Shown in pieces: positions 1 through 28,234 of a DNA stretch of 36,836 nt. This DNA is from a virus. The notes under the pieces were generated by a model that saw only the letters and a list, made by a program, of their open reading frames with translations, was not told where the DNA came from and made no database searches. Location of the stretch: positions 1 through 36,836 of IMG/VR virus record IMGVR_UViG_3300032309_001900. One strand, written 5' to 3'. Both the position numbers and the translations under genes were made by a program. Position 1 is the stretch's first letter; each line of letters starts with the position of its first letter.

Positions 1-2628
1 AGCGGTTCTTCTGGAATCAATGGAACTAGCGGATCTTCTGGAACGAGCGGTTCTTCTGGAATCAATGGAACTAGCGGATCTTCTGGAATCAATGGAACTA
101 GCGGATCTTCTGGAACTTCCGGCAGTAGTGGAAGTAGCGGTTCGTCAGGTTCATCAGGAAGCAGTGGATCAAGCGGTTCTTCTGGAACTTCAGGATCTTC
201 TGGAACTTCTGGCAGTAGTGGAAGTAGCGGATCATCTGGAACAAGTGTATCTATTTCAGGCACAAACAACACAATTGTTAAATTCACATCCGCTTCTACA
301 ATTGGAAATAGTATTGCAGTTGATAGTACTCATAGTTTAACCATTAATAATGTTATTGTTGGTAGAGGTGCTGGAAATGATGTTACCAATACAGTTGCAG
401 GAAACGGTTCTTTAAATAGTAATGTAACTGGCATAAGAAATAGTGCATTTGGTTATAGAGCATTATTAAGTAACACTACCGGCTATAGTAATAGTGCATT
501 TGGTTATAGATCATTAAGAAATAATACAACTGGTTATAATAATAGTGGATTTGGTGATTCTACATTAAGAGATAATACCGTAGGTATAAATAATAGTGCT
601 TTTGGTGTAGCAGCATTGTTGTATAATACATCCGGCAATTCTAATAGCGCTTTCGGTCGTAGTGCTTTACAAAACAATACAGTTGGTAGTAACAATACGG
701 CATTTGGTCATTATACACTTGTAAACAATACTACAAATAACAATACTGCTGTTGGATTCTTTGTATTGAGAAACAATACAACTGGCACATTAAATAATGC
801 ACTTGGTGTAAATGCTCTAATAGCAAACACGATTGGTAATAGTAATAATGCGTTCGGTTATTTAGCATTAGCAAGCAATTCCGCTGGTTCTAGAAACAAT
901 GCATTTGGTACATTAGCATTGTCAAAGAATACCACAAACAATAATAATGCGTTCGGTTATTTTGCGTTAGCAAGCAATACAACTGGTGTTAATAATAGTG
1001 CATTTGGTCATATATCGTTACAAAATAATACAATTGGTGTAAATAACAGCGCATTTGGAATGTATGCTTTATCAAGTAACACAACTGGTAATAATAATAG
1101 TGCTTTTGGTATAAGCGCTTTAAAAAATAATAGAAGTGGCATCAGAAATAATGCATTTGGTATAAATTCTCTAATATTAAACGTAGCTGGTAGTAATAAC
1201 AATGCTTTCGGTTATTACGCTCTTAAGAATAATACCACGAATAATAATAACGCTTTTGGTTACAATTCATTAGCAAGCAATACAATAGGTACAAATAATA
1301 CAGCTATAGGACATCAAACATTGCAAAATAATACCACGGGCGTAAATAATACAGCAGTGGGGCTAAATGCTTTAAATGCTAATAATACTGGTACAAGTAA
1401 TACTGCTATAGGTGTAAACGCTTTGGGTGCTAATACATCAGGTATTGCTAATACAGCTGTAGGTAGAACTTCTTTACAAAGCAATCAAGTTGGTAGTAAT
1501 AACAGCGCATTTGGTTATTATGCTTTAAAAGCAAATACAACAAATAACAATAGCGCGTTTGGTAGAAGTGCATTACAAAATAATACAACCGGTATAAATA
1601 ATAATGCATTTGGTTTAAATGCTTTGGCAAGTAATACAGTTGGTAACAATAATAATGCATTTGGTCATTTAGCATTAGCAAGCAATACAACTGGCGATAG
1701 TAATAGTGCATTTGGTTATCTAGCGTTAAAAAATAACACGTTCGGTTTTGGAAATAGTGCATTTGGTTATTCTGCGTTAGCAAGCAATACCACAGGTGGA
1801 ATAAACAGTGCATTTGGTTTTTTAACATTAGCAAACAATAATACAGGCGAGCGTAATTCTGCTTTTGGTAGAGGAGCTTTACAATTTAATACAAGTGGTA
1901 CCAATAATAATGCATTCGGTTATTTAGCATTACAAAAAAATACTACAGGTATACGAAATGTAGCAATGGGTAATAGTTCTCTTGGCCTTAACACATCCGG
2001 TAAAGAAAATATAGCTTTTGGACATGGCGCATTAGGAGCTAATACAATTGGCAACTTTATTTGTGCTATAGGCAATTTTGCATTGTCTGCCAATACTACT
2101 GGTATAAATAATACCGCAGTTGGTTATAATGCTGGATCTGCTGTAACAACTGGCACCAATCTAACAATAATAGGTTTTAACGCAGCTTCTTCTTCAGCTA
2201 CAGCTACCAATGAAATTACATTAGGTAATGCCAACGTAGCTGCACTTCGTTGTCAAGTAACATCAATTACTGCATTATCTGATTTTAGAGATAAAACTGA
2301 TATCAATGACATGAGCGTAGGATTGAGCTTTGTGGAAAAACTACGCCCTGTCACATTCAAGTGGGATAAACGTGAGTGGTATATTAATGGTAGCAGAGAT
2401 GGTAGTAAAAAAGATAATGTAATCCAAGTTGGTTTTATAGCTCAAGAATTAAAACAACTTCAAGAACAAGAAGGCGTAGAATATCTAAAATTAGTGTACG
2501 AAAACAACCCCGAAAAACTTGAAGCCACTCCAGCTAACTTATTGATACCATTAATTAAAGCGGTTCAAGAATTAAATAATAAAGTAAAAACATTAGAAAA
2601 TAGAATTATATTCTTAGAAAATAGATAA
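1..2628 (+). CDS. Tail fibre/adhesin C-terminal part: collagen-like repeats, 17-residue repeats, S74 chaperone (5' partial)
   Basis: Frame 1 is open from the first base, so the start lies outside the window and 875 codons are visible. In order: 27 collagen-like GXY triplets (nt 4-246, mostly GSS, GTS and GIN), a short linker containing VGRGAGN, about 35 repeats of 16-17 residues with consensus NSAFGxxALxxNTTGxxN (nt 439 to about 2226), and a C-terminal domain starting at LSDFRDKTDIND (nt 2275 on). That last motif, with its Ser-Asp (nt 2278-2283), matches the peptidase S74/endosialidase chaperone family, which trimerises fibres and then cuts itself off at the conserved Ser. The final 25 or so residues form a heptad-like helix (AVQELNNKVKTLENRI), as is usual there. 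The repeats resemble beta-roll stalks of trimeric adhesins. Role: host-binding fibre. It could be the other half of the open gene at the right edge. A methionine at 616 lies inside the repeats and is not the true start. Confidence 0.9.
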   Translation, partial: SGSSGINGTSGSSGTSGSSGINGTSGSSGINGTSGSSGTSGSSGSSGSSGSSGSSGSSGSSGTSGSSGTSGSSGSSGSSGTSVSISGTNNTIVKFTSASTIGNSIAVDSTHSLTINNVIVGRGAGNDVTNTVAGNGSLNSNVTGIRNSAFGYRALLSNTTGYSNSAFGYRSLRNNTTGYNNSGFGDSTLRDNTVGINNSAFGVAALLYNTSGNSNSAFGRSALQNNTVGSNNTAFGHYTLVNNTTNNNTAVGFFVLRNNTTGTLNNALGVNALIANTIGNSNNAFGYLALASNSAGSRNNAFGTLALSKNTTNNNNAFGYFALASNTTGVNNSAFGHISLQNNTIGVNNSAFGMYALSSNTTGNNNSAFGISALKNNRSGIRNNAFGINSLILNVAGSNNNAFGYYALKNNTTNNNNAFGYNSLASNTIGTNNTAIGHQTLQNNTTGVNNTAVGLNALNANNTGTSNTAIGVNALGANTSGIANTAVGRTSLQSNQVGSNNSAFGYYALKANTTNNNSAFGRSALQNNTTGINNNAFGLNALASNTVGNNNNAFGHLALASNTTGDSNSAFGYLALKNNTFGFGNSAFGYSALASNTTGGINSAFGFLTLANNNTGERNSAFGRGALQFNTSGTNNNAFGYLALQKNTTGIRNVAMGNSSLGLNTSGKENIAFGHGALGANTIGNFICAIGNFALSANTTGINNTAVGYNAGSAVTTGTNLTIIGFNAASSSATATNEITLGNANVAALRCQVTSITALSDFRDKTDINDMSVGLSFVEKLRPVTFKWDKREWYINGSRDGSKKDNVIQVGFIAQELKQLQEQEGVEYLKLVYENNPEKLEATPANLLIPLIKAVQELNNKVKTLENRIIFLENR
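4..246 (+). repeat. Collagen-like GXY coding repeat (27 triplets)
   Basis: Twenty-seven uninterrupted Gly-X-Y triplets are encoded in frame 1, almost all GSS, GTS or GIN, with no proline. At the DNA level these are 9-base units in which Gly is mostly gga or ggt. The pattern 'ggaatcaatggaactagc' (GINGTS) recurs three times at the left, a variant not seen in the repeats at the right edge of the window. The X and Y positions are nearly all Ser or Thr, which are possible O-glycosylation sites. Confidence 0.95.
439..2226 (+). repeat. About 35 tandem 51-bp units coding a 17-residue adhesin repeat
   Basis: The unit is N-[ST/N]-A-F-G-x-x-A-L-x-x-N-T-T-G-x-N. Conservation is at the protein level and the DNA has diverged. 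A few units are 16 residues, where NTTNNN replaces NTTGxN before the next AFG (for example near nt 930-950 and 1230-1250). The repeats fade at the right end (NTAVGYNAGSAVTTG, then LTIIGFNAAS) just before the S74 domain. The spacing and the inward-facing AFG/AL residues suggest a beta-roll stalk. Confidence 0.9.
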
Positions 2629-2634
2629 TCTTTA

Positions 2635-3264
2635 ATGTCTTACTCGTATGATTATTATTTGAAAACGTGTTTAATTTTGCGTAAAAGCGGATTTAATCCA
2701 AAAAAAATTTTAGATATTGGCGCGAGTATTTGCGAAACCGCCGACATCATGCGTGATGTTTGGCCTGTTGCAAAAATTGTTCTTTTTGAAGGTAATAAAA
2801 AATTTGAATCTTTATACAAAATAAAAAATTATACATACAATATAAAATTACTTGGTAAGTATAATGGAATATCTAAATTTTATAAAACTAAATGGAGTCC
2901 AGTTTGTTCAGGCAATTCAATATACAAAGAAAATTCATCTTTTTATGACGACACTAATTTAATAGTAGAAGAACTACCGATTTATAAATTAGACGATTTA
3001 ACTAATGAAGATTTTGATCTTATAAAAATAGATACTCAAGGATCTGAGCTAGATATAATAAATGGAGGATTTGCGACGTTTTCAAAAGCAAAAGTCATTA
3101 TCACAGAAGTGTCTTTAATTAATTATAATGAAGGTGGATGCGCAAAACAGCAAGTTATAGATAAATTAACTGATATGAAATTTGATTTCATATCAGTAGT
3201 TGAATCTGTTCTGAATGATAATAAACAAATAATAGCTGAGAGCTTATTGTTTATAAAACCTTAA
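2635..3264 (+). CDS. FkbM-family SAM-dependent methyltransferase
   Basis: 209 residues. The SAM-binding motif I is KILDIGAS (residues 24-31), followed by an acidic strand end VLFEGN (49-54). The family signature KIDTQGSELDIINGG (131-145) matches FkbM/Methyltransf_21 proteins, which usually O-methylate sugars or other small groups. It starts six bases after the fibre stop codon and has no Shine-Dalgarno sequence, so it is probably cotranscribed with the fibre. Its last 14 bases overlap the end of the converging glycosyltransferase gene. Next to glycosyltransferases and a sulfotransferase, methylation of a phage-made or host glycan is the natural inference; the substrate is unknown. Confidence 0.85.
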   Translation: MSYSYDYYLKTCLILRKSGFNPKKILDIGASICETADIMRDVWPVAKIVLFEGNKKFESLYKIKNYTYNIKLLGKYNGISKFYKTKWSPVCSGNSIYKENSSFYDDTNLIVEELPIYKLDDLTNEDFDLIKIDTQGSELDIINGGFATFSKAKVIITEVSLINYNEGGCAKQQVIDKLTDMKFDFISVVESVLNDNKQIIAESLLFIKP

Positions 3265-4012
3265 AATCATCACTTAAATCTTTTGTAGGTTCAGTGAATT
3301 TTTTAAAATCGTTGGCTTTAATATTATTGGCGGCGATAGATTTAAAAGATTCTAGCCAGTTTTTAACATTTCCTGTGAAAGTCTTTGTGCCTGTATGAGA
3401 ACAAGTAATGTTGGTATCTAAATAAACTTTGTTACCCAAATCTCTCCATTTTTTACAGAAGTAAATATCTTCACTTATTAAATCATTATCTTCACAAACA
3501 ACCTCGAATACCATTCGCGAATCGCCTTTTTCATTTTTATATGGTTTACTAGAATTCCAAATTTCTGAAATAGCTTTTTGAGATATCTTCATAAATCCGC
3601 ATCCTAATCCAGCCACTTCCATCAAACCTTCTTGATCTATAGTTAAATTAAGAGATGGATCATTATTATCTAACGCTTTGACAACATACAATTCTTCATT
3701 ATCGCTTTTCTTGCGGTAACTGCCGCCAATTACATCTTTATTGCTAGTTGCCAGCTTAAAAAAATACTCTGGATTCCATCCTACGTCAGCGTCTATGAAA
3801 ATAAGCGCGTCCATACCAGAATCATGTGCCGCTTTGAATATATCATTCCGCGCTCTTTGAATTAAACTATCGTAGCACATGAATAATGGATATATTTCAA
3901 CATTATGCGTAGAAGCTTGCGACAATGTATTTAATAAAGAATCGATATAATAAATATCGATCTTGCCATCGTAAGAAGGAGTGCCTAAAAGAACTTTATA
4001 TTTTTTGTTCAT
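3251..4012 (-). CDS. GT-A glycosyltransferase, paralogue 1
   Basis: 253 residues. N-terminal KVLLGTPSYDGK leads to LFMCYDSLIQRARN (43-56) and then the metal and nucleotide-sugar motif FIDADVGW (D74-A75-D76). Later come GLGCGFM (135-141), the acidic catalytic-type motif SED (180-182) and VYLDTNITCSHTGTKTFTGN (196-215). This layout is that of the Anp1/GT62-like GT-A enzymes common in aquatic phages. It is closely related to the gene at 5274-6059: the DAD motif falls at the same residue numbers and most motifs are shared. It is the last gene of the minus-strand run and converges on the methyltransferase with a 14-base overlap and no visible terminator. The donor sugar and acceptor cannot be told. 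Confidence 0.8.
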   Translation of the reverse strand: MNKKYKVLLGTPSYDGKIDIYYIDSLLNTLSQASTHNVEIYPLFMCYDSLIQRARNDIFKAAHDSGMDALIFIDADVGWNPEYFFKLATSNKDVIGGSYRKKSDNEELYVVKALDNNDPSLNLTIDQEGLMEVAGLGCGFMKISQKAISEIWNSSKPYKNEKGDSRMVFEVVCEDNDLISEDIYFCKKWRDLGNKVYLDTNITCSHTGTKTFTGNVKNWLESFKSIAANNIKANDFKKFTEPTKDLSDDFKVL

Positions 4013-4020
4013 CTATTATA

Positions 4021-4293
4021 TTAAATATTGTATTGCGGATAAAGTCCTGTTATTTGATTTTTTATTTCTTCGGCTAATTGAGCGTCTGTCCAGTTTCCTA
4101 TTTCATCGTATGCGTCACCAGACCAAACATAAAACCAATTATTAGATCCTTGTGGTCCAACTTGGACTAGAGCGTTTACAGTTTTGCTATTTGGATCGTC
4201 TGTGGCATTTAAAATCTTAAATGTATTTCCAGTAACTGGGGTTTGTAAAAGTATTGTGTGTGGAAGTTCTATTGTTGGGTATTCTGCGTTCAT
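4021..4293 (-). CDS. Small hypothetical protein in glycan cluster
   Basis: 90 residues that I do not recognise. It has no signal peptide or membrane segment and is soluble-looking, with a Trp/Tyr-rich middle (NNWFYVWSGDAYDEIGNW). The C-terminal part (TDAQLAEEIKNQI) looks helical. It sits between the GT-B gene (18 bases upstream in reading direction) and GT-A paralogue 1 (8 bases downstream), so it is probably translated from the same message. It may be a small structural or decoration protein, or an accessory to the glycosyltransferases; nothing in the sequence decides this. The compact context and uninterrupted frame argue that it is a real gene. Confidence 0.65.
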   Translation of the reverse strand: MNAEYPTIELPHTILLQTPVTGNTFKILNATDDPNSKTVNALVQVGPQGSNNWFYVWSGDAYDEIGNWTDAQLAEEIKNQITGLYPQYNI

Positions 4294-4311: not shown

Positions 4312-5277
4312 TTATGTTAAATTTATTACTTTTATCCATTCGTTCATTATCTTTTTTACTTGATAATTTTTAGGATTTGTTTTTATTGGGTTTCCTGAAT
4401 TTAAATGTTCAAAAAAGTCTTTAGAATTTTTAACAATTGTATCGCTGTTCAATACTTCTTTTAATGCGCCATATCCATTCATGCAATAGATATATGGAGT
4501 CGTTTGTAAAATTTCCGCAAGAACAGCAGTTAAACAAAAAGTTTCAGTCATGCAATTCACATAAAATAGACCTTTGCAACTTGCCATTAAATCAATAACT
4601 TGTTTAAAAGTAAGTGATCCATGATATTTTATATTGAAATCTGATTCGCTGATATCGTTTTCAGGATTGTCATAACCGGGTAAACATACATTTAAAATTT
4701 TATTCTTAAATTTATTATTTTGTTTTAAAAATTTCCAATGATTTATTGTTTCATGATATCCTTTCATTATACTGCTTGCATATATAAAATCTTGTTTATT
4801 TTCTGGAATTTTATATTGATAAACCCAATCGGGTATCATAAAGTTAATAACATGCTTATCCCAATCGTTTGCAAATTGTTCATTGCTATATTGGCTTAAA
4901 GTTATTAATTTAATTTTTTTATCATTTAAATAATTATAATAGCTCAAGTTGAATGAAGAATTATTATCTGTAATCCATTGATAACAATATTTATGAGGTA
5001 TTTTTGGAATTATACTATTGCGGTGTAATATTAAATGATTGCATTTTATATTGTATTTAAAAATACTTGTGTTTGGCAAATACAATACATTATTGAATGA
5101 TTTTTCTATTTTGGTATTGTTAAGGCAAATCACCTTCTTGCCTAGTTTTGCAAACTCTTCCAACAACAAAATCGCTTGAAATTCGCTACCACCCATAGCG
5201 TTTGTAATAACAGTTTCACCAGTATATGGTGATCCTACTGTATCAAATAATATTATATCTGCATGTAAATCATTCAT
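4312..5277 (-). CDS. GT-B (GT4-like) glycosyltransferase
   Basis: 321 residues. The N-terminal half has the acceptor-side loop NAMGGSEFQA (GGSE at 29-32) typical of GT4-type retaining enzymes. The C-terminal half has the Rossmann-type nucleotide-sugar domain with KYHGSLTFKQVIDLMASCKGLFYV (about 217-240) and ETFCLTAVLAE (245-255), which corresponds to the acidic donor-binding region, although its spacing differs slightly from the usual E-x7-E. It is somewhat short for the family (usually 350-400). Its start codon overlaps the stop of the upstream GT-A paralogue as ATGA (5274-5277), showing translational coupling. Likely role: adding a sugar in the same glycan as its neighbours. Confidence 0.75.
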   Translation of the reverse strand: MNDLHADIILFDTVGSPYTGETVITNAMGGSEFQAILLLEEFAKLGKKVICLNNTKIEKSFNNVLYLPNTSIFKYNIKCNHLILHRNSIIPKIPHKYCYQWITDNNSSFNLSYYNYLNDKKIKLITLSQYSNEQFANDWDKHVINFMIPDWVYQYKIPENKQDFIYASSIMKGYHETINHWKFLKQNNKFKNKILNVCLPGYDNPENDISESDFNIKYHGSLTFKQVIDLMASCKGLFYVNCMTETFCLTAVLAEILQTTPYIYCMNGYGALKEVLNSDTIVKNSKDFFEHLNSGNPIKTNPKNYQVKKIMNEWIKVINLT

Positions 5278-6059
5278 AAAACTTTAAACATATCGTCTTC
5301 TTTATTTTCTTGAGCAAAATATTTTGATAAATATTCTGGTGTCATTTTTGATATTTGTTTTTGTTCTGCGAATTTATTTCTCCAGTTAGCCAGCCATTTA
5401 TTGACATTGCCAGTATAATGTTTATTGCCTGAATGTATTAATTCAATATTTGTATCAACGTATACTTCACCTCCAAGATTTTGCCATTTAAATCCTAATA
5501 CAACATCTTCTGAGATAAAATGTTTTTGATCGTTTACAACACAATCACAAATGATTTTAGTAACATCGTCAGCACCATCAACATAATAGTTGGGTTCATT
5601 TTCAAACAATTGATCTACACATTTTTTAGACAATTTCAAAAATCCACATCCCAATCCATTTACTTCTAATAAACCATCATTATCAGGTGTTATTTCAAAT
5701 GTATTATCAGTATCTCCTTTTACTTTGAATGTATATAATTCTTCTTCATCTTGTTTCTTTCTATATCCACCGCCAATCATATCTTTATCACTCAATACCA
5801 ACTTTATGAAGTCTTCGGCTTTCCATCCAATATCAGCGTCTATAAAAAACAACGCATCAATATCATTTTCATATGCTATCTTGAAGTATCTATTGCGTAC
5901 ACGTTGCACCAAACTATCATAACACAAATAAACAGGAAGTATTTGTATATTATTTTGTGATACGAGATATTGTGTAGCATTTAAACTTTTGATAAATTCT
6001 ACGTCGTATTTTCCATCGTAACTTGGAGCCGCTAATAAAACTTTTATTGGTTTATTCAT
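5274..6059 (-). CDS. GT-A glycosyltransferase, paralogue 2
   Basis: 261 residues from the start chosen here. The frame extends to an ATG at 6089, but the ATG at 6059 gives MNKPIKVLLAAPSYDGK, which aligns with the start of paralogue 1, and it forms an ATGA overlap with the stop of the sulfotransferase gene. Motifs: LCYDSLVQRVRN (45-56), FIDADIGW (D74-A75-D76), GLGCGFLKL (136-144), SED (183-185), VDTNIELIHSGNKHYTGN (201-218). Same Anp1/GT62-like family as the gene at 3251-4012, from a duplication with divergence; all catalytic-type residues are kept in both copies, so both are probably active. The two copies are separated by the GT-B gene and the small gene. Confidence 0.8.
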   Translation of the reverse strand: MNKPIKVLLAAPSYDGKYDVEFIKSLNATQYLVSQNNIQILPVYLCYDSLVQRVRNRYFKIAYENDIDALFFIDADIGWKAEDFIKLVLSDKDMIGGGYRKKQDEEELYTFKVKGDTDNTFEITPDNDGLLEVNGLGCGFLKLSKKCVDQLFENEPNYYVDGADDVTKIICDCVVNDQKHFISEDVVLGFKWQNLGGEVYVDTNIELIHSGNKHYTGNVNKWLANWRNKFAEQKQISKMTPEYLSKYFAQENKEDDMFKVL

Positions 6060-6883
6060 ACAGGATAATTGAACGCTTTGAAATACCAAGCATACTTGTT
6101 TGTGATATAATCACAATTATGTTTCCCCAAAACTTTTAGATAATCATCTTCAACAGGCTTTATTTTTCCTCGTATCATATGATCACCAAACGGTCTGTAA
6201 AATACATCATTTTCTTGAGTGACTTGTCGCACGTTGTCAAAATTATGAAGTTCATAATATGGTAATTCAAAATAGTTATACACCTTTCGCATTTCAGCTT
6301 CGGGATTACGAGTCAAATCCTCAAATTTGATAAACAAACACTTTTGAGAAATACGACGTACAATAACATCATATATTACGTCAATTGGTGCATTTAGGGG
6401 TGGCGCTACATTTAGATACATATCCACGCGTTTATCGGTGGTAGTGCCTTTCATTTCATTCCAACTTTGCAAACCATTTTCAAATTGTTGGTTTTCTCTG
6501 AACTTCTTTTCTAGACTAGAAACAATAGATCTTAAATCTCTTACCAAGACTACTATTTTTGGGTTAGGATAAAAATAATTTAAAAAATCATGTGTGACGC
6601 TCCAGCCTCTGGATTTATCAAGCGCATATTTTTTATCTGTGACGTTGTTAAAGAATCCAGTCAATAATCCATTGCACATACCTTTGAATCCAGCTTCCAT
6701 TAATGCAGAATCTTGAGCTTTAAATTCAATAGAATTCCATACATTACCTTTCAAATTGAGCAGTACATCACATAATCCACTTGTAGGTGTTGCATAAAAA
6801 TCTGGATTTTGTGCTATTATGTTTTGAAAAAGTGTCGAACCGCTGCGAGGCATACTACTTTGAAAAAAAATCTTTTGAACCAT
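6056..6883 (-). CDS. PAPS-dependent sulfotransferase
   Basis: 275 residues. The 5'-phosphosulfate-binding loop is SMPRSGSTLF (10-19) and the 3'-phosphate-binding region is VVLVRDLRSIVSS (111-123), with Arg115 and Ser122/123 in the expected places. These are the two hallmarks of sulfotransferases that move sulfate from PAPS onto sugars, tyrosines or lipids. No signal peptide or membrane anchor is seen, so it acts in the host cytoplasm. It is the first gene of the minus-strand run and overlaps the next gene by ATGA. Its start codon is only 10 bases from that of the divergent APS kinase, which would make its donor. Acceptor unknown; a glycan made by the neighbouring glycosyltransferases, or the Ser/Thr-rich fibres, are reasonable guesses. 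Confidence 0.85.
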   Translation of the reverse strand: MVQKIFFQSSMPRSGSTLFQNIIAQNPDFYATPTSGLCDVLLNLKGNVWNSIEFKAQDSALMEAGFKGMCNGLLTGFFNNVTDKKYALDKSRGWSVTHDFLNYFYPNPKIVVLVRDLRSIVSSLEKKFRENQQFENGLQSWNEMKGTTTDKRVDMYLNVAPPLNAPIDVIYDVIVRRISQKCLFIKFEDLTRNPEAEMRKVYNYFELPYYELHNFDNVRQVTQENDVFYRPFGDHMIRGKIKPVEDDYLKVLGKHNCDYITNKYAWYFKAFNYPV

Positions 6884-6893
6884 AACATATATT

Positions 6894-7349
6894 ATGACAA
6901 CACAGTCGTTTTTAAAAATATTAATTATGGGTTTGCCGGGATCTGGTAAAACCAGTTTGGCAAGAGATTTAGTTTATATTTTAAATGATAATTATAAGTG
7001 TTATTGGTTGAATGCGGATAAAGTTCGTGAACAATTTAATGACTGGGACTTTTCTGAAGTTGGTCGTGAGCGTCAAGCAAAAAGAATGAAAGATTTGGCC
7101 AATTTATATGGTCAATATAATGAAATTGTAATTTGTGATTTTGTATGTCCATCACAAAAAACTAGAAATAAATTTGATCCTAATTTTTTGATATTTATGA
7201 ATACTATTGATAGATCAAGTTATGAAGATACAAATAAAGCATTTGAGCCGCCGACAAAGTTTGATTTTGAAGTAAGATATAAAAATAGTAACTATTATTC
7301 TAAAATAATATATAATGAAATAGTTCATAAGATGAATAAAAAAGTGTAA
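6894..7349 (+). CDS. cysC: Adenylylsulfate (APS) kinase, short form
   Basis: 151 residues. The Walker A loop is GLPGSGKTS (13-21), followed by LNADKVREQFNDWDFS (39-54), the counterpart of the LDGDNxRxGLNxDLGFS motif of APS kinases, and then GRERQAKRMKDLA (57-69), matching the DRxENIRR helix. ICDFVCPSQKTRN fits the FISP-RxxR loop, and AFEPP near the C-terminus corresponds to YEPP. It lacks part of the C-terminal region of cellular CysC (about 200 residues), so it is a shortened member. Reaction: APS + ATP to PAPS + ADP. The only visible use for PAPS here is the divergent sulfotransferase. The gene runs into the head-tail gene 9 bases downstream. A related P-loop kinase with a different substrate is the main alternative. 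Confidence 0.75.
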   Translation: MTTQSFLKILIMGLPGSGKTSLARDLVYILNDNYKCYWLNADKVREQFNDWDFSEVGRERQAKRMKDLANLYGQYNEIVICDFVCPSQKTRNKFDPNFLIFMNTIDRSSYEDTNKAFEPPTKFDFEVRYKNSNYYSKIIYNEIVHKMNKKV

Positions 7350-7922: not shown

Positions 7923-9257
7923 TTAGATCTTGCCAGTGCCAAGCTTAAAGAAGCCAGAAGTAATTGAGTCTAGATAATTTTGATAACTACCAGACATAAA
8001 TAAACCGGCAGTTGTATCATTTGCTCCACCGAGTTGAACTGAATATGTTAAATCTACAGTTTGATTATCACCAAGATTTTCAGAATATGTTTCAGAAGAT
8101 AATAGTGCGCCTCTGATTTCATAAACAATCTTATTTGCTGATGAGCTATTTTTCAATGTAATTGAAAGAGTTTGAGTTCCACTTGTTAAAGCGTCAAAAA
8201 GATTTTGATCTTTTAGTTCAGAAACAATTGCGCTAATACTTACATCCATATTAATAGGAACATTAACAACTCTTGCGAAACCAAATGTATTTCCAAGTCT
8301 TTGTAGAATTGTTCTGCTCAATGGAAGAGTAAAACTAAATGATTGAATATGAGCGTCTGCTAGATTTGTTAAACCAACGCTGTTTCCAAGAGAAAGAACT
8401 ATATCACCAGGACGCAATGCGCTTACAGAACTTACTCCAGTGGTGAATCCTGTAAAATTAACACCAGCGACAGCACCAATTGCTCCAGTGAAAGCTCTTG
8501 AATAATCAAGTTTATATGCAGAACCAATAGAAGTAAATTTAGTAGCTGGAGTAGCAAAAAGATTAATTGCTGGGCTGTTTCCAGTTATTGAGGTTATATT
8601 TGCACCGACTACACTTAATGCTGGCGCACCTACGGATGTTACGGTTGTGACAGTTTCGGCTGAATCAGATTTGATGTTAAAAGCTTCAACAGTTACGCTT
8701 GCTGTTGGAATAGCTCCAACAGAAGCTTCAAAACTATATTCGCTAACGAATCCATTACCAATTCCTACTATAGTAGAATTTGGGGTCAATGTTCCGCCAA
8801 CAACGTCTTCACCTTCATCTACAGTTAAAATGTAATAATTATTACCTTGTAGATCAGATAGTAATCCAGAAATAGCTTGTGCGCCATTAACGATATTTGT
8901 ATCAGTAACTCCAGTAATATTAAATCCCATTAATCTTTCATTATAGCCATCAGTTACATAATAACTGAAATCAAGTCCAACTGTTGGAGCTTCCATAACA
9001 ATAGAATCGATACGAGCGAGTTTACCGAATTCATTGATATCTTGTCTATTAATTGTAAAATTAAAATTACAATTTTGAATGCGATCCATCTTCTTTAGAA
9101 GAGAAATACCGGATGCTAGTGAACCTGTATCAGTTGGAGTAAATGGAGAGGCAGTGAATCCAGTACCTGCGCTATCTACTCCGCTTACTTGTACTCCAGT
9201 AGAACTTGGAGCGATAAATAAAGCTTGACTTTGGTATATTACACGATTTCTTGCCAT
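7923..9257 (-). CDS. Major tail tube protein (probable)
   Basis: 444 residues, rich in Ser, Thr, Gly and Val, beta-rich and without Cys. Near the N-terminus are LKKMDRIQNCNFNFTINRQDINEFGKLARIDS-type strands, and the second half has SFSFTLPLSRTILQRLG, VPINMDVSISAIVSELKD and LSITLKNSS-type strands. This resembles tail-tube beta-sandwich proteins, with an extra variable domain (about residues 150-300) between the two halves. It shares the pattern of strands with the shorter proteins at 20050-20997 and 22744-23550. It is the last gene of the minus-strand neck block, has the largest gap before it (70 bases) with a sigma70-like promoter, and ends at the hairpin terminator. A separate strong promoter and terminator suit a highly made structural protein. 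It could instead be a tail-decoration protein. Confidence 0.65.
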   Translation of the reverse strand: MARNRVIYQSQALFIAPSSTGVQVSGVDSAGTGFTASPFTPTDTGSLASGISLLKKMDRIQNCNFNFTINRQDINEFGKLARIDSIVMEAPTVGLDFSYYVTDGYNERLMGFNITGVTDTNIVNGAQAISGLLSDLQGNNYYILTVDEGEDVVGGTLTPNSTIVGIGNGFVSEYSFEASVGAIPTASVTVEAFNIKSDSAETVTTVTSVGAPALSVVGANITSITGNSPAINLFATPATKFTSIGSAYKLDYSRAFTGAIGAVAGVNFTGFTTGVSSVSALRPGDIVLSLGNSVGLTNLADAHIQSFSFTLPLSRTILQRLGNTFGFARVVNVPINMDVSISAIVSELKDQNLFDALTSGTQTLSITLKNSSSANKIVYEIRGALLSSETYSENLGDNQTVDLTYSVQLGGANDTTAGLFMSGSYQNYLDSITSGFFKLGTGKI

Positions 9258-20998: not shown

Positions 20999-22744
20999 AT
21001 GGGAATACCACTATCATCATTATCTGATAAATTAGGCGTAAATGTTGCGGCTACTGATATATTTTTGGTATCTAATAGCAATTCTTCGCAAGATAATAAA
21101 ATAACAAGAGATGAGTTTAGTAAAGCGTTTACTGGTTTTTACGCTCAAAATGCACAAGGTTTTACTATTTTTGAAAATAATGGTATTTATGGATTAACAG
21201 TAAGTGGATCAAATGGTTTTGTTGGTATAAATGATAAAACTCCATTTGTTTCATTAGATGTTGTGGATAATACCGCTTCTACAAATGGTTCTGGGCAAAT
21301 TAGATTAAGCACTCCAAATTCTGGAAGAAAGATAGCTTTTTCATTAAGCGATCCAAATACTTATTATGAATTTAGTAAAAAATCCAATGATACTAAGTTA
21401 TATTTAGAATCATCTATTGATGGTGGCTCAACGTTTAGTAATTTATTTGTAGTAGATCAGAGTGGTAATTTTGGCATTACAGATTCTACCGGAGTTTTAA
21501 ATAATAAATTTTTAGTAAGTGGCGCATCAATTCAGTTTCAAAATTCAGGCAATGCTATACTTTTTGATCCATACAATACTGAAATAAAAACAAGCGCTAA
21601 TGATGAAACTTTATTATTAAATTATAATAATCTTGGAGATATAAATGTAGGTTATAATGCAGTATATGTAGATAATAGTTTAACTGCTCCTAAAGTAGGT
21701 ATCGGTCATGCTATTCCAGCTTATACTTTCCATGTAAGTGGAACTGCTGATGAAGTGGCTAGATTTCAGAGTAATGTTAGCAGATGCGTAAGCAGTTATA
21801 GAACTTCAACTTCTACATATTATTTTGGAGCAGAAAGCACAAATGCGTTCATGGGTCCAGTTTCTATATTGAATGAAAATAATTTAGTAGTAGGCAGTAA
21901 CGGTTTTGTTGGTGCTGGAACAACTGGTCCATTATATAAATTAGATATTAGAGCAACTGGTACAGCACAGTATACTCCAGCATATTTTCAAAATACAAAT
22001 ACACAAGGATACGCGCAAATAGTAATAGCTGCAAATAAAGCGTTTGGAGGTGGGGATACAGGACCAAGAAATAGTTTTGTAACTTTTTCTCGATATGATG
22101 GTTCTCCAAGTACAGATAAATGGTCAATTGGAAATTTATATGTTGATACAACTTTTGGAGGTAGTGATGATTTCGTGTTTATTAAAAATGGTTATGCTGG
22201 AGCTTCTCCAGATGTTGTAGCAAAGTTAAGTACAGCGGGAAGTTTAGATATTGATGGAAGTTACACAAGTAATTCCTCTTATTGTAAAGGTCAATTTGTT
22301 GAGGTTTATCAAACAAGATTAACTGGAACTTCTAATATTTATATAGATCCAATTGGAATAAACGGTTCTTCTGTAGTTAGTAGTGGTGATTTTAATAATG
22401 ATTCGCCATATGGTGTATCAATGTATAATGGTAAACTTGAAAGAATAAAATTGTTCACATCAAATACGATATCTTCTAATGTTATTTTTCAATTTTATGC
22501 TATTACTCCAACAACTACATCTGTAAATGGTTATAATAATATAAATACAACTGGAGATTATGCAAATGTAAAATGTAGTGGAACAGTTGCTTTAAACACA
22601 AATCAAATAGCAGAAATAGTATTTCCAACTTTTGGAACTTTTACTTCTGGACAATTATTACAATATAGATTGTTCAAATCGGATTTTACCACTTTAAATA
22701 TACCAGTTAAGATAACTAGCTCTTTAAAATACACTATTGTTTAA
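20999..22744 (+). CDS. Tail fibre-like protein with VGI repeats
   Basis: 581 residues. The N-terminal 45 residues (IPLSSLSDKLGVNVAATDIFLV and following) look like a virion-anchoring segment ending in ITRDEF. Then come fibre-type repeats in which a glycine-valine-glycine strand is followed by xPxxxLDV: NGFVGINDKTPFVSLDV, PKVGIGHAIPAYTFHVSG, NGFVGAGTTGPLYKLDI. The C-terminal 200 residues (from GQFVEVYQTRLTG) are beta-rich and may form a binding head; they have no S74 domain or coiled coil. Located between two tail-tube-like genes, so the fibre probably attaches to distal tail rings. It is one of at least three fibre genes here. No enzymatic motif seen. Confidence 0.75.
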   Translation: MGIPLSSLSDKLGVNVAATDIFLVSNSNSSQDNKITRDEFSKAFTGFYAQNAQGFTIFENNGIYGLTVSGSNGFVGINDKTPFVSLDVVDNTASTNGSGQIRLSTPNSGRKIAFSLSDPNTYYEFSKKSNDTKLYLESSIDGGSTFSNLFVVDQSGNFGITDSTGVLNNKFLVSGASIQFQNSGNAILFDPYNTEIKTSANDETLLLNYNNLGDINVGYNAVYVDNSLTAPKVGIGHAIPAYTFHVSGTADEVARFQSNVSRCVSSYRTSTSTYYFGAESTNAFMGPVSILNENNLVVGSNGFVGAGTTGPLYKLDIRATGTAQYTPAYFQNTNTQGYAQIVIAANKAFGGGDTGPRNSFVTFSRYDGSPSTDKWSIGNLYVDTTFGGSDDFVFIKNGYAGASPDVVAKLSTAGSLDIDGSYTSNSSYCKGQFVEVYQTRLTGTSNIYIDPIGINGSSVVSSGDFNNDSPYGVSMYNGKLERIKLFTSNTISSNVIFQFYAITPTTTSVNGYNNINTTGDYANVKCSGTVALNTNQIAEIVFPTFGTFTSGQLLQYRLFKSDFTTLNIPVKITSSLKYTIV

Positions 22745-23550: not shown

Positions 23551-25559
23551 GTGAATTTTTAAATACACAATTTTCTGTCACAGGGATTAAAGATTTTGAT
23601 ATTAATCAAAATTATGATCAATATGATTTAGTTGATTATGAATTTCATACTGGAAATTCTGTATATCCAGCAAACTTATCTGGCTTGTATGCTTGGTTTA
23701 ATTTAGATAGTCTTAATAATATTGAATTTGATGGTTCTGGTAAAATATCTTTATGGCATAATTCTGCTCCAGGCTTTTCAGAACAAAATTTAGTAAATGT
23801 AGATGCTACTGTGACTTTGGATTCTAGACCAAAATACGACTCAAATAAAAATTCTGTAGTTTGTGAAAGATCTTTGAGCGAAACATTCTCGTATAATCAA
23901 CTATATACAACGCAAAATTTTTCGGGTTTTCTAACTGGAGATAGATGTTGGTTCGTTGTATTTGAATATGATGATTTAAAAAATGGATTATTTAATTATA
24001 ATGCTGGCAGTCCTTATGGAGTAATTTATCCAAATTATTCTACAATTATAAATACAGATTCAGCCAATCCATATGTTACTAGTGGTGCATTAATGGTTTA
24101 TGGAAATAATATTGAATATTCTTGGAATACAAATGTGCCTAAAGAATCTCAACAATTTATAGTAGATACTACTACTTCAAATGGAATAGTTTCTCCTCCA
24201 CCAATTAATTCATCATTCTCAGCTTCTAAATTATTAAAAAAGAAAAGTATTGTTTCAATTATAAAAAACAATACAACAAATAATTTTAAATTAAGAAATA
24301 ACGGTTGCGAATTGTTAAATTTAACAAGTAATTATTTTTATACTGGTGCTGCTGGTCTTAGAATTGGAACTGCTGGTAATGGGCATGTTGGCGCAAATAA
24401 TATATGGAACTATGATGCTTCAAGTATTTCTTATTATGAAATAATAGGATATTCAAAAACTCCTACAGATGATCAAATACTACAAATAGAAAAATATTTA
24501 TTTGAAAAACATTTTACAAATGACGATGGTCTTTATATATCTAATCAAGATTTTACTAGTTTAAATTATTCATATGCGCCTATTAATATAACGGGATCTA
24601 GATATTTAACTAGAGATGTTGATTCTATTTTTAATAAAACATATGGATGTTCTGCAAATTTTACCACGAAGGCTTTGAAGATGCAATATGGTGATGGATA
24701 TTATACAAATGTTGTTCCAAACGTTAATAATTTGACAAGCGATTTTAAATTAGTTTATGATGGTTTAACGGATATTCAATCAAAATCTTTAATTGGTTAT
24801 TTTCAAAATACTTTTGAATATGAGGCTTTAGGATTAGTGGAATCTTATCAATCCGTAGATATTGATTTATTTTATCCATATAAAAATAATGCTAAAATAT
24901 ATTTTAATTCTTTGGACTACTCTTCTAAAGAAGCGAATTTAAATGCAATTACAATAACTTGCAATTCGCCATATGATTCTAATTTAGATTATAAAGGATT
25001 TTTAGTTACTGGAGACGATACAACAAGATTATTTGACCAAAATAAACCTTATTTTAAAGATGATGTTTCATTCTTCAAAACAACAAGTTCTTTATTAGAA
25101 GATTATTATTGGTACACTGGAGCCAATAATAAAATCGTAAGTATAAATGAAAATCCTACAGGAATAAATAGCTTATTCACAAGAAAATTTTATTTTAAAC
25201 CTGATTTAAATTTTCAAATTCCGCTTAATCCAAGATTTGTAAAAACTGAGTATGCGATGACCGCGCCAGTTTATGAAACAGACGGAATAAATAAGAATGT
25301 TTTAGATTTTACTTTAAGCTTTTCTAATAGATCAGATAAAGAAGCTTTGGCAATATTAAAATTTTTAGATAATAAAGCTGGTTTTAAGATTTTTGAAATA
25401 GATTTGCCAGATCCTTATAATAAAACAATAAATGTTTATTGTCCTGAATGGAATCATACATATAAATTCTATAACAATCACGATATTTCAGTAAAATTTT
25501 TAGAGTTTAAGGGTTTAACTTCATCAGATATATATTTTAATACATTAATTTCACTATGA
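23547..25559 (+). CDS. Lambda gpM-like tail tip protein, duplicated, with LamG-like domain
   Basis: 670 residues, against about 110 in lambda gpM. Residues 45-330 look like a concanavalin A/LamG-type lectin domain: LSGLYAWFNLDSLNNIEFDG, GKISLWHNSAPG, and at the end YYEIIGYSKTPTDDQILQIEKYLFEK, the usual closing helix of phage and Bacteroidota LamG domains. Two gpM-like domains follow: ALKMQYGDGYYTNVVPNVNN (about 375-480), which matches the 'FGDGYeqR...GlN' signature of gpM, and PRFVKTEYAMTAPVYETDGI to PEWNHTYKFYNNHDISVKF (about 550-665). Role: ring at the tail tip that also binds glycans. ATGA overlaps on both sides. The call for the first gpM domain is firmer than for the second. Confidence 0.7.
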   Translation: MSEFLNTQFSVTGIKDFDINQNYDQYDLVDYEFHTGNSVYPANLSGLYAWFNLDSLNNIEFDGSGKISLWHNSAPGFSEQNLVNVDATVTLDSRPKYDSNKNSVVCERSLSETFSYNQLYTTQNFSGFLTGDRCWFVVFEYDDLKNGLFNYNAGSPYGVIYPNYSTIINTDSANPYVTSGALMVYGNNIEYSWNTNVPKESQQFIVDTTTSNGIVSPPPINSSFSASKLLKKKSIVSIIKNNTTNNFKLRNNGCELLNLTSNYFYTGAAGLRIGTAGNGHVGANNIWNYDASSISYYEIIGYSKTPTDDQILQIEKYLFEKHFTNDDGLYISNQDFTSLNYSYAPINITGSRYLTRDVDSIFNKTYGCSANFTTKALKMQYGDGYYTNVVPNVNNLTSDFKLVYDGLTDIQSKSLIGYFQNTFEYEALGLVESYQSVDIDLFYPYKNNAKIYFNSLDYSSKEANLNAITITCNSPYDSNLDYKGFLVTGDDTTRLFDQNKPYFKDDVSFFKTTSSLLEDYYWYTGANNKIVSINENPTGINSLFTRKFYFKPDLNFQIPLNPRFVKTEYAMTAPVYETDGINKNVLDFTLSFSNRSDKEALAILKFLDNKAGFKIFEIDLPDPYNKTINVYCPEWNHTYKFYNNHDISVKFLEFKGLTSSDIYFNTLISL

Positions 25560-28234
25560 CTTACGTTAATACAACTGGTAAAAATATAGGCCAATGTTTA
25601 ACTGGTTTTGCTATTTCTTATCCATTAAGTATATATAACAGTGGAAATTCACAAGTTCAATATGTTTTCAACAATAGCAACGCTACAAATTTTGCATTAT
25701 CTCAGTCTTCTTTATTATTAGATAGTAGTGACTATGGTAATGTAGATATATATTATATTCCAACTGTTTCTGCTCCTTCAGGTACACAATCAACAACGAT
25801 AACAATAAATAGTGAATCAACAGAAGATGGATCTACAGATCCAAGTGGAAGTATTACATTGCAAATAACAGGAAATAAAATTATAGATATTACTGGTGGT
25901 TATGTTAGGTCTTTTAAAGCAGTAAGAAATTATGATACACAAAATGGTTTAAATTATGATTTTTATTGGTCAGTTCCAACAGGAACAGAAAATTTAAATA
26001 ATTATTTTTTTACAGGTTATAATTTAGAAATATCTACTGTTACAAACTTTTCAACTACAGTTTTTTCTAAGAATATAAATATATCTGAAAATACAAATGC
26101 TTTTCCAAAATATGGAAATTTTTATGGTACAGATCAATATTTAAATTATTTAAATGTTTCTTCAACAGATTATCCATTTGCTATAGAGACTGATTATTAT
26201 GCAAGAATGTATACTATGTCTGTAAATCATAGTGGAATAAGTATTTATGCAACAGGAGTGGATTCTGCAAGCACTCAATTATCAAATGAAGTTGTTAGTG
26301 GTTATAGCGGAACTCCTAAAAATATAAAATTTTCAAGAGGGCCTTTGCTAGTTAATTTAAAGCAAGGATATGATATACAAAATTTTGATTTATTTAAATA
26401 TATAGTAGATGCTAATTATGGTAAACCAGATTTAAGTTATTATAATTCTATAGATATATATTTACCAGAAGATAGTAATTTTTATTCAACAGATAGCAAT
26501 AAATACGCATTGCAATTAGACGGTATATTTGAAAATTTTACTGGAAATACTGGAGGAGATACAATAGTAAATATTTATATACCATCAACTACTCGTTTAT
26601 TAGGTTATCAGGGAGCAGGTGGACAAATAATAAATCAAAATTTAAATAGTTACGATCCTTTTGGTCGCGATTGGTCAAGTTTAATTAATCAGACTGAAGC
26701 TAACTACGCTGCTGGTTCTTTTGCGGATTCAAAAAATGGAGGTAGTATATTAAAGTTAGCAGCAAAAACTAGCATAAACAATCAAACCGCAGTTTCAGAT
26801 ATAAAATATAACTTATATATACAAAATAAATCTTCTTTGCAATCTGGAGGTGGTGGATCTAAAGCTGGTGTAGTGATGACAAAAAATGGTTTAGGAGGTA
26901 GAGGAAATGATTATATTTATCAAAATGGAAATTTTCCTATACAAGGAGCCTCTAATTCTTTTAATACAAGATTTGATTTAGTGTATTCATCGTATCTTAA
27001 TACAAACACTACTCAAATAGATAGCAATTCGACACAAACAGTAGGTTATTGGTTTTCTCCACAAGCCGGTTATGGAGAATCGGGATCGCAAACAGTTGTT
27101 TATTATTTAAATCCAAATACAAATTTTTCAAATACAGATTCAAGAGGTAAAGCGAATTCTTTTAATACAGTTGATGTTGTTACAAGCGCTATAAATACTT
27201 TCTATTATAATAAAGGTAACTTATTCGTAGCTAATTTTAAACCAGTAAATGTTACAGCTACAAATCAACTTTGTGGCAATTTAATAACTTCATTTTCAAA
27301 CTCTTCTGTTTTATTAAATATATATAATAAAAATTTACCATCTGATTATATATTTAGATTTCCTAATAGTGGAATTTCAAGCAGTCCAAATTATTGGGTT
27401 GGTGGTTCATATACTTTAACTGGTGCTGCTACATATTCTGCAAATTATAAGAGTTTTGGATATAAAGCTTTAACATTAAAAAATCAATCTTTATCAACAA
27501 TATTTACTAATTCTATTTTATGTAGTGATTTTGATTTATATATAGTAGCCGCAATAGAGCAAGATACAGATTTTGATACATTAGCTGCTAACTCTACATC
27601 TTTTAAATTTTTAGATTGGTATAAGACAGCGAAAAACGTTTCATCTAAACATCTTTTGTATACGAAATATCCGATAAGTTCTTATAATTATTATTCAAAA
27701 GAGCCTAATGTTTTTCAATCGTTTTTAACTCCATTATTTGATGCTGAAATAACAAACAATACTTCTGCTAATTTTTTTACTTATGATAAAACTAATATTA
27801 TAAGAACTAATTTCGCTCAAGTTTCTAAAAGTTTAAATTCTTCTGATCAAAGTTACTATCCTGTAATAATAAATATTAAACGTTCAAAAACTTTTTATTC
27901 TATTTTTATAAATGGAGTTTTATTAACTAGTTATGATTTGTTGGCTTTAGCACTAGCAGCGAATAAATCTTCATCTTTATTAATAAACGATATTAAAAAT
28001 ACTACTTTTAAATTAATAAATGATTTGTCAAGTCTTAAAGTTTCTTATTTTGATATTGCGTGTTATAATAGGCTTTTGATAGATAACGAACAGATTAATA
28101 TAAATAATTATTTTATAGATACATATTTTAAATTATTCACTGGAGAAACATCTGCTACTTATAATATAAGAAATAAATCTTTTAGATTGCCAAATATTTT
28201 TAATATAGCTGGAACACCATCGAACGCTTCTTGA
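25556..28234 (+). CDS. Large tail-tip adhesin (Ig-like, glycine-rich and LamG-like domains)
   Basis: 892 residues. Residues 10-107 resemble an ASPM/SPD-2/HYDIN ('choice-of-anchor D') beta-sandwich: PLSIYNSGNSQVQYVFN, FALSQSSLLL, DIYYIPTVSAPSGTQ. Residues 112-260 look like a fibronectin-type module ending in VVSGYSGTPKNI. A glycine-rich beta region follows (LLGYQGAGGQI, SLQSGGGGSKAGVVM, GLGGRGND), as in phage fibre tips. The last 250 residues resemble another LamG-type lectin, closing with YFDIACYNRLLIDNEQININN. No catalytic motif. Sits between gpM-like and gpL-like genes, where lambda has no gene. The composition suggests carbohydrate binding at the tail tip. Domain calls other than the last are tentative. 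Confidence 0.55.
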   Translation: MTYVNTTGKNIGQCLTGFAISYPLSIYNSGNSQVQYVFNNSNATNFALSQSSLLLDSSDYGNVDIYYIPTVSAPSGTQSTTITINSESTEDGSTDPSGSITLQITGNKIIDITGGYVRSFKAVRNYDTQNGLNYDFYWSVPTGTENLNNYFFTGYNLEISTVTNFSTTVFSKNINISENTNAFPKYGNFYGTDQYLNYLNVSSTDYPFAIETDYYARMYTMSVNHSGISIYATGVDSASTQLSNEVVSGYSGTPKNIKFSRGPLLVNLKQGYDIQNFDLFKYIVDANYGKPDLSYYNSIDIYLPEDSNFYSTDSNKYALQLDGIFENFTGNTGGDTIVNIYIPSTTRLLGYQGAGGQIINQNLNSYDPFGRDWSSLINQTEANYAAGSFADSKNGGSILKLAAKTSINNQTAVSDIKYNLYIQNKSSLQSGGGGSKAGVVMTKNGLGGRGNDYIYQNGNFPIQGASNSFNTRFDLVYSSYLNTNTTQIDSNSTQTVGYWFSPQAGYGESGSQTVVYYLNPNTNFSNTDSRGKANSFNTVDVVTSAINTFYYNKGNLFVANFKPVNVTATNQLCGNLITSFSNSSVLLNIYNKNLPSDYIFRFPNSGISSSPNYWVGGSYTLTGAATYSANYKSFGYKALTLKNQSLSTIFTNSILCSDFDLYIVAAIEQDTDFDTLAANSTSFKFLDWYKTAKNVSSKHLLYTKYPISSYNYYSKEPNVFQSFLTPLFDAEITNNTSANFFTYDKTNIIRTNFAQVSKSLNSSDQSYYPVIINIKRSKTFYSIFINGVLLTSYDLLALALAANKSSSLLINDIKNTTFKLINDLSSLKVSYFDIACYNRLLIDNEQININNYFIDTYFKLFTGETSATYNIRNKSFRLPNIFNIAGTPSNAS

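Follow-up and report, generated by a model that had tools for sequence, protein, structure and literature searches.

Viral sulfotransferase (ST) genes were found to be paired with a gene of the APS-kinase family more often than neighbourhood chance would give. At phage ST loci outside the lineage of the DNA analysed here, this kinase goes together with a compact HxGH nucleotidyltransferase, here called N, and the N-kinase partnership is a new observation of our analysis. Some viruses seem to carry the entire sulfation pathway, often close to tail genes. The window, i.e. the whole stretch of DNA analysed, is the 36,836-nucleotide IMG/VR virus record IMGVR_UViG_3300032309_001900, and holds the ST and the kinase back to back. 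The two genes probably encode the last two steps of PAPS-dependent sulfation, with the kinase as an APS kinase and N, in the relatives, as a compact ATP-sulfurylase-like enzyme; APS as the kinase substrate and the reaction of N we infer. In the accessible portions of the open-licence literature, neither the N protein nor a pairing of sulfotransferase and APS kinase in phages was found to be described, and phage sulfotransferase function is called unclear in the available part of PMC10580990. As phage STs are tied to their own PAPS supply, partly beside tail genes, the direct question is whether virions carry sulfate.

The pair and the genes on its left were as follows:

616..2628 (+), tail fibre/spike with S74 chaperone domain (PF13884, 3.3e-11; phrog_4636 tail spike, 3.5e-113)
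2635..3264 (+), FkbM-family methyltransferase (PF05050, 3.9e-11, and TIGR01444, both over cut-off)
3251..4012 (-), possible family-2 glycosyltransferase, PHROG 1574 family (phrog_1574, 6.3e-27; phrog_12406 glycosyltransferase, 1.8e-5)
4021..4293 (-), small cluster protein of 90 aa (40-45% identity in the lineage)
4312..5277 (-), uncharacterised cluster protein from the same strand, kept in the lineage
5274..6089 (-), possible glycosyltransferase, PHROG 1574 family, function not assigned (phrog_1574, 3.6e-20)
6056..6883 (-), PAPS-dependent sulfotransferase, Sulfotransfer_3, 275 aa (PF13469, motifs, PHROG 27463)
6884..6893 (no strand), spacer of 10 bp between two divergent start codons, constant in length in the lineage
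6894..7349 (+), lidless APS-kinase-family kinase (type B), 151 aa (PF01583, AF2 model, PDB matches)

The first-pass annotation had claimed a sulfotransferase with an adjacent, divergent gene of APS-kinase type, and both reading frames (6056-6883 on the minus strand, 6894-7349 on the plus strand) were found to be unbroken where it had placed them. The ST matched PF13469 with an E-value of 1e-17 and 65.6 bits, over the Pfam gathering score of 27, and PF00685 was also over its Pfam cut-off (1.2e-11); PHROG 27463, which has no assigned function, matched with 1.8e-36. The two PAPS-binding motifs claimed for the ST were borne out by an alignment of 15 sequences, where R13, G15, S16 and T17 of PRSGST (R.GST) and R115 and S123 of R-x7-S were invariant; we take these motifs to be the 5'-phosphosulfate loop and the 3'-phosphate motif. 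Loss of PAPS-loop or kinase residues in homologues had been named as a point to check, and the residues were found to be kept. By permissive patterns, and in sets that also contain kinases from cells and multiple copies of one record, the 5'-loop was present in 166/168 and R-x7-S in 162/168 ST relatives, and Walker A in 261/262 and DxxR in 262/262 kinases.

The nearest solved structures by sequence to the window ST were the protein-tyrosine sulfotransferases TPST1/2, with a weak match (5.5e-7). What we take to be their catalytic glutamate segment was not evident by eye in the window ST, which showed nothing to suggest a tyrosine target. The sulfotransferases annotated in the cyanophages S-SKS1, S-SCSM1 and S-SRM01 belong to the same Sulfotransfer_3 family, with 27-29% identity to the window ST. 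Unlike the window, which has the kinase, these three isolate ST regions showed neither kinase nor N, by annotation or by profile models.

PF01583 (APS_kinase) matched the window kinase with an E-value of 3.1e-13 and 50.5 bits against a cut-off of 21.1, with only residues 9-93 aligned, and the NCBIfam equivalog threshold for apsK (TIGR00455) was missed, with 41.1 bits against 138.7. The APS-kinase fold spans the entire chain in the predicted AF2 model (pLDDT 94.6). The best 30 PDB rows for this model were all APS kinases or the APS-kinase domains of larger enzymes (Z 16.3-19.2, 132-151 residues aligned), and gluconate kinase ranked after them. Canonical APS kinases have a lid segment with the motif KGLYKKAR. 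Neither the window kinase nor the relatives of types A and B that were read have it; the kinases of loci L114, L254, L335 and L341 carry a KGLY lid. The claim of an APS kinase is supported by the family, the fold and the Walker A and DxxR motifs, and weakened by the missing lid and the apsK score. At the positions that we take to be the APS contacts of the Penicillium enzyme (R66, F75, R80, N83 and S107), the alignment showed R, F and R to be kept in the window kinase, with N changed to Q and S to C. CysC and the APSK domain of PAPS synthetase (PF01583) have the P-loop kinase fold and the Walker A, D..R and GR motifs in common with the window kinase, the relatives of which share a sulfate-activation gene context with CysC-type enzymes. 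Unlike CysC, it has about 150 aa, lacks the lid, falls under the apsK equivalog cut-off and lies on its own deep branch common to SAR11; it is 57% identical to the kinase portion of a SAR11 protein in which kinase and nucleotidyltransferase are fused.

Outside the window lineage N, a unit of 110-150 aa resembling NMNAT, accompanied the kinase in all 46 kinase-bearing ST loci, usually in the order ST-kinase-N, and it occurred in 0/34 kinase-less loci. At locus L114 N is fused to an APS kinase of the canonical, lid-bearing type, and the fusion overlaps a gene of the same ST family; at L300 kinase, N and ST follow consecutively, the ST scoring 22.4 bits with PF00685 against a cut-off of 22. The N of L079, L258 and L254 matched PF01467 (CTP_transf_like), and PF01747 (ATP sulfurylase) had no match at E 0.01 in the N part of three fusions or in two separate N proteins. 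None of six N proteins reached the NCBIfam NMNAT equivalog cut-off (at best 50.6 bits against 127), and two of the six passed only the broad adenylyltransferase/cytidyltransferase domain model TIGR00125. The best PDB profile match of N was nicotinamide-nucleotide adenylyltransferase (1.4e-9, the significant match being a single segment of about 60 residues), and ATP sulfurylase was not among the 28 matches. N as a classical ATP sulfurylase or an NMNAT was rejected by sequence, since neither model fits. With nicotinamide-nucleotide adenylyltransferase N has the HxGH nucleotidyltransferase motifs in common; it differs from that enzyme in passing no NMNAT equivalog and in occurring with APS kinase and APS reductase.

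The kinase of the relatives is fused to, or followed by, the nucleotidyltransferase in the same order as in human PAPSS1, a bifunctional PAPS synthetase. The model of a SAR11 kinase-N fusion aligned to PAPSS1 entries over 235-246 residues, with an rmsd of 11-17 Å over the two domains; the kinase half filled the structure rows of this fusion, which therefore say little on the fold neighbours of N. The second unit, unlike that of PAPSS1, is the short NMNAT-like one and not PF01747, and none was found in the window lineage.

We propose that the 151-aa kinase would add a phosphate to APS (adenosine 5'-phosphosulfate) at its 3'-OH, forming PAPS, and that the ST would transfer sulfate from PAPS onto an acceptor. 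N, encoded after the kinase in many other phages, would most likely make APS from ATP and sulfate, and ST, kinase and N may in those phages form a complete activation-and-transfer operon. The window had been described as 'self-supplied' for sulfation, which found no support in that form: an APS kinase needs APS, and N, the likely APS-forming enzyme, was not found in any of the 18 window-lineage records searched, all of them possibly fragments, so that the window phage probably draws APS from its host. A wider scenario is offered tentatively. N may represent a compact ATP sulfurylase class that has gone unrecognised and that evolved from the NMNAT-like branch of the HxGH nucleotidyltransferases; it would handle APS beside APS reductase in SAR11 and, with a lidless APS kinase, would make a minimal PAPS synthetase. 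Phages would have joined this unit to an ST, giving a three-gene operon often near tail genes, and the window would be a reduced two-gene form that depends on host N for the sulfation of its own virion glycan.

The acceptor would most likely be a glycan on a tail fibre or another virion protein, built by the neighbouring putative glycosyltransferases. We lean tentatively to the virion, hold the host surface to be conceivable and consider any other acceptor unlikely. The 'glycosyltransferase cluster' of the first-pass annotation is too strong a wording. The product of 3251-4012 has a PHROG glycosyltransferase match, with PF00535 (0.023) under the Pfam cut-off. The PHROG family of the 5274-6089 product has no assigned function and a Pfam search gave no match, and the 4312-5277 product had zero matches in Pfam, PHROG and NCBIfam. 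The product of 4021-4293 had nothing over cut-off in Pfam or PHROG. Gene 5274-6089 was called with a TTG start at 6089; an alternative in-frame ATG at 6059 would overlap the ST stop as ATGA. The S74 fibre gene is probably cut, because its frame is open over 1-2628 and so reaches the left edge of the window. With 18.4% Ser+Thr and 19.6% Asn in this fibre, the earlier wording of 'Ser/Thr-rich fibres' needs to be softened; the richest of the 25 window proteins counted (20999-22744, 7923-9257 and 25556-28234) have 21-22% Ser+Thr each.

That phages modify the surface glycans of their hosts is established, and the sequence does not show which acceptor is used. Sulfation of a host surface glycan by the ST, leading to a superinfection block, is a possibility that we take seriously, and the one argument against it is the neighbourhood, with the pair in a tail region.

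A role of real PAPS chemistry in host metabolism or in sulfated host compounds, with the pair as auxiliary metabolic genes and neither virion nor surface glycan as the target, appears rather unlikely. It is favoured by the listing of viral sulfotransferase as an auxiliary gene in the available parts of published papers and by the type-B kinase and N being also SAR11 genes, partly adjoining APS reductase, so that the phage kinase could use sulfite-derived APS in the host. SAR11 N was mostly fused or near to a type-B kinase or upstream of APS reductase, the gene order being N upstream of aprM-aprB-aprA. AprB-positive SAR11 genomes had N in 79/86 cases (7 without) and classical Sat (ATP sulfurylase) in 6/86, and AprB-negative genomes had N in 20/62; classical Sat occurred in 9 of the 148 SAR11 genomes sampled, and CysD was absent from 50/50 N-bearing genomes tested. 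The kinase relatives point to N as a candidate APS-handling enzyme of SAR11, a group whose sampled genomes often had APS reductase and seldom classical ATP sulfurylase; this is a weighty question for marine sulfur cycling. The surroundings, however, argue against a metabolic role: the window pair sits between the S74 fibre, the FkbM methyltransferase and tail genes. Within 3 kb of the ST in other phages, a fibre-like (by eye) repeat protein was found in 12 of 23 clusters, a GT-B-like protein in 15, a tail sheath in 7 and a long repeat-protein family including a relative of the S74 fibre in 5.

A SAR11-like host for the window phage would be a guess from the 30.6% GC and the kinase tree. The host search gave no match among phage isolates for one window tail gene, and a second matched a fibre protein of wide occurrence, with no more than 43% of its length covered among the matches listed. 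No tRNA genes were found in the window.

It is quite improbable that the kinase phosphorylates the 3'-OH of another activated nucleotide and that the 'sulfotransferase' moves that other group, as with Campylobacter Cj1415, presumably a CDP-phosphoramidate 3'-kinase that for a long time carried the annotation cysC. The absent lid, the low apsK score and the APS_kinase model covering residues 9-93 only would agree with such a role, and the likeness of N to NMN adenylyltransferases means that the activated compound is not readable from sequence. Against it, a canonical lid-bearing APS kinase occupies the same place beside the same ST family, fused to the same N; N lies upstream of APS reductase in SAR11; and the PAPS motifs of the ST are kept. 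The predicted fold and the genome context make another kinase substrate unlikely.

The linkage of ST and kinase was assessed across viruses. An APS-kinase-family gene was present in 54/88 viral ST loci and within 1.5 kb in 50, many of the loci being close kin and the counts thus not independent events. After clustering at 80% identity, 12 of 23 ST clusters had a kinase and 11 had none, and with the window excluded APS-kinase-family genes occurred in 13 of 16 ST-bearing viral records. Three kinase branches (lidless B, lidless A and canonical with lid) partner the one ST family. Among 80 control loci anchored on the tail sheath, many of them short contigs, 4 had ST and kinase, 2 ST only, 2 kinase only and 72 neither (Fisher 1.4e-4). 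Within the window lineage the island changes fast, with a median identity of 58% for the ST and 49-67% for three putative glycosyltransferase-cluster proteins against 95% for the next gene, and its gene order varies among members; a chance meeting of ST and kinase in such a variable cargo island is nevertheless highly improbable and already disfavoured by the kinase being in only 2/74 control loci without ST, by the three branches paired with the ST and by the strict kinase-N partnership.

An ST alone is also a viable arrangement, as 34/88 ST loci had no kinase in the locus; the kinase was absent beside the closest STs as well (L098, L099 and L101). Outside the window lineage, an ST over the PF13469 cut-off was present in only 13 of 66 records with a type-B kinase, made up of 8/36 (L016-L051) and 5/30. 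An initial expectation that an ST would be common beside fusions of type-B kinase and N was dropped on these counts. Among named phage isolates the ST query found 10 records, all with less than 60% identity, and the window kinase and type-A kinase queries found 5 each. Two isolate kinase regions read were kinase-N fusions, with no ST found by the ST model. The ST and kinase lists had no record in common, and the pair is thus not visible among isolates at that sensitivity. An FkbM-anchored control found the kinase in 16 of 17 loci with ST and in 2 of 12 loci lacking it; this control is weak and was superseded by the sheath control, because most of its ST-bearing loci belong to the window lineage. 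A further scan of 8 loci was likewise mostly of this lineage.

Co-occurrence in related phages, which the first-pass annotation had proposed to look at, proved to be strong: the two genes are kept together in the lineage, and other kinase branches are paired with the ST elsewhere. The start codons of ST and kinase were 10 bp apart in 21/21 measurable loci of the 24 tried (L103 included), with L011 and L014 having no ST and L110 lying outside the lineage; five records are doubled, which leaves 16 distinct records.

The virus record comprises 36,836 bases with a GC content of 30.6%. On its left side, the sulfotransferase and kinase genes share an island with five other genes.

616-2628: S74 tail fibre, frame open to the left end of the window; left border of the island
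Island, between the S74 fibre and the genes from 7359 onward: FkbM methyltransferase, two PHROG-1574 proteins, an unmatched 321-aa protein, a small protein, the sulfotransferase and the kinase
6056-6883, minus strand: sulfotransferase
6894-7349, plus strand: kinase
28236-29333: minor tail protein L, in the tail region
30163-33699: protein with a partial-length match to phage tail fibre proteins

The island is evolving more quickly than the adjoining sequence. Compared with the close viral relatives of the window (the window lineage), the sulfotransferase had a median identity of 58% (12 loci) and the kinase one of 79% (14 loci), as against 95% for the gene next to the island (14 loci). The divergent start codons of the pair are separated by 10 bp (6884-6893) in every lineage locus measured, so either the promoters should lie within the gene on the other strand or the transcripts would be leaderless.

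We read the pair as an APS kinase and a PAPS-dependent sulfotransferase, both being predicted activities. Judged by its sequence, the sulfotransferase is a clear member of its family. Both PAPS-binding elements (R13, G15, S16, T17; R115 and S123) were invariant among 15 aligned sulfotransferases, and they were retained in 166/168 and 162/168 relatives of at least 240 aa, as scored with our own regular expression and with repeats of one record counted. The closest solved structures were tyrosine sulfotransferases, with a weak match. The kinase scored above the Pfam APS_kinase cut-off and below the NCBI apsK equivalog cut-off, and it lacks the lid segment of canonical APS kinases. The best 30 matches of its predicted structure (pLDDT 94.6, pTM 0.90) were all APS kinases, either on their own or as a domain of a larger enzyme (Z 16.3-19.2), followed by gluconate kinase (Z 16.1) and then phosphoseryl-tRNA kinase (Z 14.2); as the gap between APS kinase and gluconate kinase is small, the substrate cannot be read from the fold by itself. 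A kinase tree of 81 rows, reduced from 261 proteins and with long branches flagged by the tree program, separated a lidless clade B, in which the window lineage groups with SAR11, SAR86 and phage fusions, from a clade A of lidless phage kinases (fork support 94/90) and from the canonical lid-bearing enzymes. The window kinase was 57% identical to one SAR11 kinase domain (41-57% across the aligned SAR11 rows) and may derive from a SAR11 bacterium.

An APS_kinase-family gene was present in 13 of the 16 viral records retrieved with the sulfotransferase, as it is in the window. With 72 new loci from a second search (best 80 of 567), 88 sulfotransferase loci were available; our kinase model found the kinase in 54 of them, 50 within 1.5 kb of the sulfotransferase. 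It lay downstream on the same strand in 42 of these 50 and was divergent in the other 8, which constitute the window lineage. Grouping the sulfotransferases at 80% identity gave 23 clusters, of which 12 had the kinase in the locus and 11 had it within 1.5 kb. As a control, 80 loci were anchored on the tail sheath gene of one such phage (best 80 of 599): 4 had both genes, 2 the sulfotransferase only, 2 the kinase only and 72 neither (Fisher 1.4e-4), and in both sulfotransferase-only loci that reading frame was cut by the contig start. All three kinase branches had members paired with the same sulfotransferase family. Three loci (L098, L125, L128) each carried two sulfotransferase genes of this family and no kinase.

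Within 3 kb of the sulfotransferase, a GT-B-like protein was found in 15 of the 23 clusters, a fibre-like repeat protein in 12 (both labels assigned by eye), a tail sheath in 7 and a long repeat-protein family in 5. One member of the last (in L093) was 42% identical to the S74 fibre of the window. The GT-B-like protein had no Pfam match and a PHROGs match only to unknown function (4.9e-4); the fibre-like protein had a Pfam match under the cut-off and none in PHROGs. This neighbourhood weakly favours a virion glycan as the acceptor.

A further gene, N, encodes a compact, NMNAT-like HxGH nucleotidyltransferase that we read as ATP-sulfurylase-like. Among wider relatives of the window kinase (best 80 of 301 matches), all 66 loci outside the window lineage had N, fused to the kinase in 65. 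The 88 sulfotransferase loci comprised 46 with all three genes, 8 with sulfotransferase and kinase (all window lineage) and 34 with the sulfotransferase alone; none had N without the kinase. N was not found in any of the 18 window-lineage records searched. The order sulfotransferase-kinase-N, with less than 100 bp from kinase to N, was seen in 39 of the 46; the rest were one kinase-N fusion and six with different spacing or order. Loci retrieved with a clade A kinase had N in 36 of 40 cases and the sulfotransferase in 27. At L114:6803-7852 (plus strand) one reading frame, overlapping the sulfotransferase, joins a lid-bearing APS kinase of the canonical type to the same N; this is possibly a viral PAPS synthetase of new make-up. 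At L335:5986-6951 (plus strand) the frame of a canonical APS kinase continues at its C-terminal end into an additional segment, HAD-type-phosphatase-like by eye, and is followed by N. Kinase-N fusions also occurred in large phage records of up to 524 kb (L016-L081), mostly without a sulfotransferase above the PF13469 cut-off. In L079 (3165-4922), L080 and L081, sulfotransferase domains sit inside open frames of about 575-620 aa, 5' of the fusions, and the L079 frame also has a weak TPR match.

N was also searched for in 84,980 species genomes. Of the best 80 of at least 570 cellular relatives, 76 were from Pelagibacteraceae (SAR11) and the others from SAR86, a Bacteroidetes single cell, a Nitrospiraceae MAG and a gammaproteobacterial MAG, a selection that does not give the full range of N. 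The kinase was present in 52 of these 80 loci, fused to N in 5; the 47 unfused kinases lay within 100 bp of N (34) or at 2-5 kb (13). APS reductase genes were found in 29 loci, AprB neighbours being counted by similarity to that of L258, where PF12139 (1.3e-32) confirmed AprB and PF01925 a sulfite exporter; 8 loci had neither kinase nor APS reductase genes. In the SAR11 loci L255-L331, including L258 (N at 5944-6351), N either precedes aprM-aprB-aprA or lies close to an APS-kinase-like gene.

Classical ATP sulfurylase (Sat) was found in 5, CysD in none and AprB in 32 of 50 genomes taken from these 80 N-bearing ones. Among 148 evenly drawn Pelagibacteraceae genomes, 86 had AprB, 9 Sat and 99 N. 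N was present in 79 of the 86 AprB-positive genomes versus 20 of the 62 AprB-negative ones (Fisher 1.2e-14, uncorrected for relatedness); of the 79 genomes with both, 33 had the two no more than 5 kb apart. Sat was present in 6 of the 86. Neither N nor Sat was found in seven AprB-positive genomes (G163, G201, G210, G240, G246, G261, G279), possibly reflecting assembly gaps or a further route. In SAR202, according to PMC5864207, ATP production from sulfite via AprBA requires a second step by sat. Together with the contexts of N, kinase and AprB and the rarity of Sat, this makes APS the most likely shared currency of N and the clade B kinase. As most of the SAR11 genomes sampled have no Sat, N is a candidate for the enzyme that handles APS in these bacteria.

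Phage sulfotransferases have been published singly, with a function termed unclear in PMC10580990, and viral ones are counted among auxiliary genes in PMC12285232 and PMC13079714. Lone viral cysC is probably already known, since cysC and adenylylsulfate kinase are mentioned in the literature alongside phage and auxiliary metabolic genes. In the open-licence literature searched, we found no published description of N or of the linked module. Kinase-N fusions are present in named isolates, Stenotrophomonas phage DLP_6 (L221:5001-5732) and Clavibacter phage 33 (L222:3992-4729), where they are annotated as hypothetical protein or kinase.
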